64,000 nucleotides of DNA from NCBI RefSeq assembly GCF_000427965.1, contig NZ_ATZA01000010.1:1-64000 (forward strand), given 5' to 3'. Under the pieces are notes generated by a model. It saw only the letters and a program-made list of their open reading frames with translations, was not told the origin of the DNA and ran no database searches. Made by a program: the position numbers and the translations under genes. Position 1 is the first letter of the stretch, and every line of letters starts with the position of its first letter. This document shows positions 3,912 through 6,030 of the stretch, piece by piece. The DNA is from Olivibacter sitiensis DSM 17696. GTDB taxonomy: Bacteria > Bacteroidota > Bacteroidia > Sphingobacteriales > Sphingobacteriaceae.

Positions 3912-3918
3912 TTTCCTT

Positions 3919-3950
3919 AATCAAGGTGGGGTTTTCTCCTCGCCTTGATT
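3919..3950 (+). terminator. Hairpin after the Bor-like gene
   Basis: AATCAAGG at 3919-3926 pairs with CCTTGATT at 3943-3950. It lies eight bases after the stop codon. There is no T run after it on the plus strand, so it may act as an mRNA 3' stabiliser or a weak terminator. Confidence 0.45.
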
Positions 3951-4122
3951 GTAACAAGGCTAATTCGTTCGTTTCCCGGATAAGACCGACTTTTGTTTTG
4001 GAATTCAGATCTCTTAGGGTGGTTTCGTAATAGACTAATTTCCCTTTTCCAAAATATGATTTCATGACCAAATAGTTGAAAATTTGCATTCCCTCGATCA
4101 TAGGTTTTGCCAAGGGCAATAT

Positions 4123-4344
4123 TTATCTGCGCTTTTGAAGTTGTTTTGCGAAAGCATAGATGAAGTTGCCCAACGGTGAAAATAGAGCGCTGTTCAACGC
4201 GTGCATAATAATGATGAATGCTTCGTTGTCACGAAGAAGTGGAAGAAGATCCTCTTGGTGTAACTTTTTATCCCAACCACCCCAGATTTTATCCCAAACA
4301 AGGCAGAGTATGTCTTTTGGTTGCTTAGTTTTACGCCATGAAAA
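4123..4344 (-). other. Possible decayed reading frame in the 3912-4337 gap
   Basis: The 426-base gap before the LytS-type kinase holds no intact gene. On the minus strand one frame stays open for 73 codons before a stop at 4123-4125. It reads like protein, for example DLLPLLRDNEAFIIIMHALN, then NFIYAFAKQLQKRR at the stop. It has no start codon except an internal ATG that would leave 32 residues. The same frame continues open past the stop down to 3889. I do not recognise a family. It may be a gene remnant or chance. Confidence 0.2.
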
Positions 4345-5348
4345 TCAAAGTGGTTTTTATACATGTCGTTGGCTGGCTTCTATTCTTGATTTATTCCTAC
4401 ACCTATTGGTTGGGGAAAGATGCGAGTAGAATCCAGTTTTGGGTAAGTATCTCCATGGATATCTGTCGTATCCTGCAGTTCTATTTTTGTTACCTACTCG
4501 TATATCCGCTTTTTATAAAGACCAGTAAACTGTGGCACCTCTCGTTGGGCATAGTAGGGGCTTTCTTTCTGTTCATCGGTCTACGTGCGGGCATAGAGGA
4601 AGTGATTTATCCCGTGACATTGGGTTTTCATAACTATTTCAAAGGTACTACGGTAGGTTATTATATTGTAGATAACATATACTATGCCGTTCCCTATATC
4701 GTGTTGTCTGCTGCGGTATTCTTCACGCAAAGGGCATTTGCCGAGATAAAGCGCAATAAGCTACTGCAGCAAGAAGCCACCAAGGCCGAGCTGGCCTTCC
4801 TGCGTTCGCAGATCAACCCCCATTTTTTGTACAATGCGCTCAATTATATGTACTCACTGGCCATTCCCGTTTCGGATGAGTTGGCAAAGGCCATCGTGAA
4901 GCTGTCGGACATTATGCGCTACACCTTTTCGGAGACCAAGGACGGCAGGGTGGAGCTCGTAAAGGAAGTGGAGTATGCCCAAGCTTATGTAGAGTTGCTT
5001 CGCATGCGCTTTGCACCGCAGTTTTTCGTGCAGTGGGAATTGGGTCCCCTGCCCGAAGAGGTGAAAATCGCACCCTTATTGCTCATACCTTTTGTTGAAA
5101 ATGCGTTGAAGCATGGGGTCATCAACGATCCGCAACGGCCTGTTAAGATCAAGTTGATTTATGTAAATGGCAAGTTGACACTGACGGTCAACAATAAGAT
5201 AGGCCAGCAGCAAAAAGACAGGTCCAGTGGCGTGGGGCTCGTCAACGTGCGGAGACGTTTGGAACTGATATATCCCGACAAGCATGAATTGTTGATTTCC
5301 AACAATGGAAGGAGCTATCGGGTCACATTGGTAATAGAACTAGAATGA
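4338..5348 (+). CDS. LytS/AlgZ-type sensor histidine kinase
   Basis: A 336-residue membrane kinase. About four hydrophobic segments fill residues 1-130. A short coiled coil then leads into the His_kinase domain (PF06580 type), with RSQINPHFLYNALN carrying the phospho-accepting H162. The ATPase part has PFVENALKHG (N box) and SSGVGLVNVRRRL (G box). Kinases of this class normally work with a LytTR response regulator encoded next to them. Here only a 29-codon remnant of that regulator follows at 5350-5436, so the kinase may be an orphan, signal through another regulator, or be losing function. Confidence 0.9.
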   Translation: MKIKVVFIHVVGWLLFLIYSYTYWLGKDASRIQFWVSISMDICRILQFYFCYLLVYPLFIKTSKLWHLSLGIVGAFFLFIGLRAGIEEVIYPVTLGFHNYFKGTTVGYYIVDNIYYAVPYIVLSAAVFFTQRAFAEIKRNKLLQQEATKAELAFLRSQINPHFLYNALNYMYSLAIPVSDELAKAIVKLSDIMRYTFSETKDGRVELVKEVEYAQAYVELLRMRFAPQFFVQWELGPLPEEVKIAPLLLIPFVENALKHGVINDPQRPVKIKLIYVNGKLTLTVNNKIGQQQKDRSSGVGLVNVRRRLELIYPDKHELLISNNGRSYRVTLVIELE

Positions 5349-5349
5349 G

Positions 5350-5436
5350 ATGATACGCTGTCTGTTGGCAAATAAATACTTGCCCATAGGGGAGAGCTAT
5401 AGGCAGGGATTCTATGAGCATATAAAGAAAACGTAA
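5350..5436 (+). pseudogene. Internally deleted LytTR response regulator
   Basis: Directly after the kinase stop an ATG opens a 28-residue frame, MIRCLLANKYLPIGESYRQG and so on, ending at TAA 5434-5436. The first five residues match the usual start of LytTR-family regulators (MIRCLIVDDEP). The rest, LPIGESYRQGFYEHIKK, matches the usual C-terminal tail of the LytTR DNA-binding domain. The receiver domain and almost all of the DNA-binding domain are missing, yet the junction is in frame. This looks like one internal deletion of roughly 200 codons. The reading is based on family knowledge and not on an alignment. Confidence 0.72.
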
Positions 5437-5538
5437 TTATTTATGATATAATGATTTATACCAAATCTAAATTCGTTTTTGATTCCACTAACACGTTCCT
5501 TTTTGTTAATATTGGATCACACTTGTACAAGCAATAGT

Positions 5539-6030
5539 ATGGAAAACGAAAAGGAAGAAAAAACCTTTGTGGTACAGAAGGTACAACCGGCATTATTGGG
5601 TTTAATGGATGGCTCTGTGTCTACATTGGCACCTATCTTTGCAGCGGCGGGACTTACCGCAAGGCCCATTCAGGCGTTTTATGTGGGCTTGGCTGCTTCG
5701 CTTGGGGCGGGCATCAGTATGGGCCTGGCCGAGGCACTGACGGATGATGGCACGATAACGGGTCGTGGAGGACCTTGGTCAAGAGGTTTCATTACGGGCT
5801 TGGGCACTGCCGTTGGTGGCATGTTGCACACCTTGCCCTTTCTTATCCCAAACATCCGCGTGGCACTCAATATTGCCTATTTGGTCGTAGGCATTGAATT
5901 GTTGCTCATCAGCTATATTCGGTACCGTTACATGAAGGCACCTTTGGGCAAAACCGTTGTACAGATTATCGTAGGTGGCGCTATCGTCTTTTTCCTGGGC
6001 ATCTATCTGGGAAATATGGGTGCGAACTGA
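5539..6030 (+). CDS. VIT1/CCC1-family membrane protein
   Basis: A 163-residue inner-membrane protein with four or five hydrophobic segments. The segment [20 protein letters not shown] followed by [16 protein letters not shown] resembles the VIT1/CCC1 family of iron and manganese transporters, where such membrane acidic residues bind metal. It is shorter than most members, which have about 230 residues and an extra cytosolic metal-binding loop. ATG 5539 is preferred over the upstream codon at 5479 because MENEKEEK is a normal hydrophilic start. Metal specificity is inferred. Confidence 0.75.

Follow-up and report, generated by a model that had tools for sequence, protein, structure and literature searches.

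A LytTR response-regulator gene probably reduced to 28 codons by an internal deletion behind an intact LytS-type kinase in Olivibacter sitiensis

Two kinds of known system come close to the locus described here. The first are the LytSR/YehUT-like kinase-regulator pairs, which form a subfamily in the Sphingobacteriaceae. As in these pairs, the kinase is full length; it is 52-56% identical to Pedobacter-group orthologues, which occur in many genomes of the family. Behind it, a remnant frame occupies the place that the regulator takes in nearly all relatives. In contrast to these pairs, the regulator appears cut to 28 codons, with no receiver and no usable LytTR domain. The second kind are remnants of internal-deletion pseudogenes in two-component operons, which leave an orphan kinase. 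Here, too, the first gene is intact and its partner is reduced to two ends; the sole difference is that the deletion at this locus is in frame. The part of the literature covered by our search held no directly relevant precedent.

We propose that the remnant is a LytTR gene after one internal deletion, that its peptide is debris and that the kinase is intact but orphan. We give this reading a probability of about 0.92. The features are collected in Table 1. Positions refer to the window, the whole stretch of 64,000 nucleotides that was analysed.

Table 1. Kinase and putative regulator remnant in the window
Feature	Position	Strand	Basis
LytS/YehU-type histidine kinase, intact, 336 aa	4338..5348	+	His_kinase PF06580, E 7e-23
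Probable 28-codon remnant of the cognate LytTR response regulator	5350..5436	+	best regulator-tail match in the window, and position
5' part of the remnant, MIRCL (codons 1-5)	5350..5364	+	orthologous regulators that were read share this start
3' part of the remnant, LANKYLPIGESYRQGFYEHIKKT	5365..5433	+	aligned to orthologue tails INDQSIPIGETYKEEFFKVVR

The kinase belongs to the LytS/YehU type by its PF06580 domain with conserved H-box and ATP-binding motifs; the H-box INPHFLYN and the N-box PFVENAxKHG are both conserved. It retains 62 of the 66 positions that are invariant in the subfamily, both boxes included, and so the kinase itself seems free of decay. No intact regulator adjoins it. Judged by its sequence, the kinase would be an orphan through the loss of its neighbour and not through any decay of its own.

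The remnant frame opens one base beyond the TGA of the kinase (5346-5348). Its translation of 28 residues, MIRCLLANKYLPIGESYRQGFYEHIKKT, consists of MIRCL joined to LANKYLPIGESYRQGFYEHIKKT. To score its tail, we built a position-specific profile from the tails of LytTR regulators and ran it over all 60,846 stop-free 18-mers in the six frames of the window. The top score, 13.6 bits, fell on ANKYLPIGESYRQGFYEH at 5368 (runner-up 10.0; mean -28). Because the frame with this top score also opens with MIRCL and directly follows a LytS kinase, the likeness to a LytTR regulator is, on sequence grounds, beyond chance. An earlier note on this DNA had described the frame as the MIRCL start and the last ~23 residues of a LytTR regulator, lying in frame behind an intact LytS kinase. 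Our analysis confirms the coordinates, the extent of the tail, and the kinase with its length, its domain and its stop one base ahead of the frame.

By origin, that is by position and by the sequence of its start and its end, the frame belongs with the LytTR response regulators. By content it does not. Pfam finds no domain in the 28 residues: both the Response_reg receiver (PF00072), with its acidic pocket and phospho-acceptor Asp, and the LytTR DNA-binding domain (PF04397) are absent.

The pair of kinase and regulator is conserved in relatives. From 400 genomes of the family, we assembled 80 kinases of the same subfamily matched with regulators. A full-length regulator lies on the same strand within about 1.3 kb of the kinase in 78 of the 80, directly downstream in 68 and within about 1.3 kb in 10. 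At two loci with a gap (L038 and L117), a gene of the beta-lactamase family (PF00144) or a similar gene stands between kinase and regulator. Two loci depart from this pattern: in G086 the full-length regulator in place behind the kinase is more divergent, and in G224 the regulator is located elsewhere in the genome. A second collection of 80 loci contains mostly more distant kinases, and a regulator adjoins nearly all of them, including all close kinases (L136-L141, L143 and L144). Breakage also occurs elsewhere in the subfamily, as a stop codon in the G217 kinase and in the G220 regulator; thus loss within the pair is not unique.

In the four relatives that were read, a divergent gene for a large outer-membrane beta-barrel stands beside the kinase-regulator pair and is a candidate target (L116:2936-5347, L117:9469-11886, L118:6143-8692 and L119:2035-4437). 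It belongs to PF14905 in L116, and the other three look alike by sequence. Such a gene is absent beside the window kinase. The two closest homologues in the genome are 33-34% identical (C100:68451-73311), one of them with an internal stop.

The orthologous regulators are 239-245 residues long, start with MIRCLAVDDE and end at about INDQSIPIGETYKEEFFKVVR. The earlier note had proposed an alignment to the regulators beside the closest homologous kinases. We ran it, and both ends of the remnant align to full-length genes. Codons 1-5 and the final ~22-23 codons are kept, and 208-212 codons, or 624-636 bp, are missing by this alignment. Identity on the 5' side extends up to CTG (5364) and on the 3' side begins at about 5368; the deletion junction lies at ~5362-5370. 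In the orthologues, PF00072 covers residues 5-109, of which all except residue 5 fall in the deleted part. The LytTR domain covers residues 146-234, and the remnant retains only its last ~19 positions, the final strand region. The alignment thus bears out the internal in-frame deletion of the receiver and most of the DNA-binding domain that had been suggested.

Hence we picture the following course of events. Originally, the LytS-type kinase would have been followed directly by the gene of its LytTR response regulator. A single internal deletion of ~624-636 bp would then have taken out the receiver together with almost the entire DNA-binding domain, staying in frame by a 1-in-3 chance. The earlier note regarded in-frame loss as unusual. 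This argument carries little weight: a deletion keeps the frame in one case out of three, and the in-frame state therefore needs no special explanation. The product of the remnant should be unable to accept a phosphoryl group or to bind DNA as a LytTR protein, and would thus be debris.

Alternatively, the regulator gene could be intact in the organism and have collapsed in the assembly, which is a draft of 110 contigs. Such a collapse would need a repeat at both edges that is at least as long as the k-mer or overlap of the assembler. We searched for a relevant repeat around the junction and found none. The site also lies 5 kb from the start of a 133 kb contig, not at its very end. Since no more than a few junction bases fit both ends, we consider an assembly collapse very unlikely.

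If the short frame had a function, it might be kept in relatives in the place of a regulator, and the earlier note had named such a finding as one that would speak against its reading. Among the 400 family genomes, we found no 28-codon frame in place of the regulator behind a kinase. Matches to the 28-residue peptide in these genomes are the C-termini of frames of 237-267 residues, with one exception. This exception, a frame of 95 residues in G114, looks like a chance match; no regulator or kinase was found near it.

The same survey bears on the idea that the cell produces the 28-residue peptide and has kept it as a small modulator. It would be a microprotein that is translationally coupled to the kinase and modulates either this kinase or one of the paralogous LytTR regulators. 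Coupling is possible because the frame is open and starts one base past the kinase stop, and the tail is still recognisable as the best profile match in the window. However, the frame has no counterpart in the family genomes surveyed, and what survives comes from the end of the DNA-binding domain, whereas the surface that docks to the kinase belongs to the receiver. Furthermore, an in-frame deletion leaves an open frame automatically. A functional peptide is therefore extremely improbable. Of the two fates named before, binding to the kinase loses ground because no relative has the frame, whereas debris fits a product with neither receiver nor usable DNA-binding domain.

We infer that a single deletion, specific to this lineage, left a remnant without function. 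The tail has kept its sequence well (identity to orthologues up to 45%, similarity about 73%), as has the kinase, suggesting either that the deletion is recent or, less likely, that the peptide is under constraint. Four other genomes of the genus contain no orthologue of the window kinase (best match 33-34%). They thus offer no undeleted locus from which the exact junction, the ancestral sequence and the age of the deletion could be read. The locus is a clear example of a kinase becoming an orphan, in which the kinase is intact and the partner gene is trimmed to its ends. It is otherwise ordinary gene decay in one lineage.

After the deletion, the orphan kinase would either have lost its output or serve a different LytTR regulator encoded in the genome. 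The genome encodes about 22 LytTR-type regulators, nearly all of them beside their own kinases. No relocated full-length copy of the lost regulator was found in it, in agreement with the earlier view that the kinase was left without its partner. The best match, a regulator at C3:119505 (57%), follows its own kinase at C3:118505, and this pair is genus-wide and lies outside the clade of the window kinase. The unpaired candidates, regulators at C26:42488 and C26:24859 and a frame with only a LytTR domain at C65:15799, reach just 29-47% identity, so none is clearly the lost gene in a new place. That the kinase may serve another LytTR regulator is speculation, and the locus could be used to ask whether an orphan kinase rewires in this way.

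On C65 of the same genome, a LytTR-only frame of 115 residues has no receiver (L216:4761-5108, minus strand). It overlaps an upstream gene resembling a Crp-type cNMP-binding protein. Judged by eye, its neighbours include ParA- and relaxase-like genes and seem to be carried on a plasmid or transposon.

In the flanks of the window locus (3912-4337 and 5437-5545), a search for further remnants of the Pedobacter neighbourhood gave nothing above noise. Between 2529 and 9200, the gene order is AKR, Bor-like lipoprotein, kinase, VIT, DnaJ and CbpM-like. This order is not kept in four genomes of the same genus, in which the AKR and DnaJ genes are in separate places. About 4 kb from the kinase, positions 1-219 of the window (plus strand) encode the C-terminus of an IS3-type transposase, with an integrase core (rve_2, E 7e-17).
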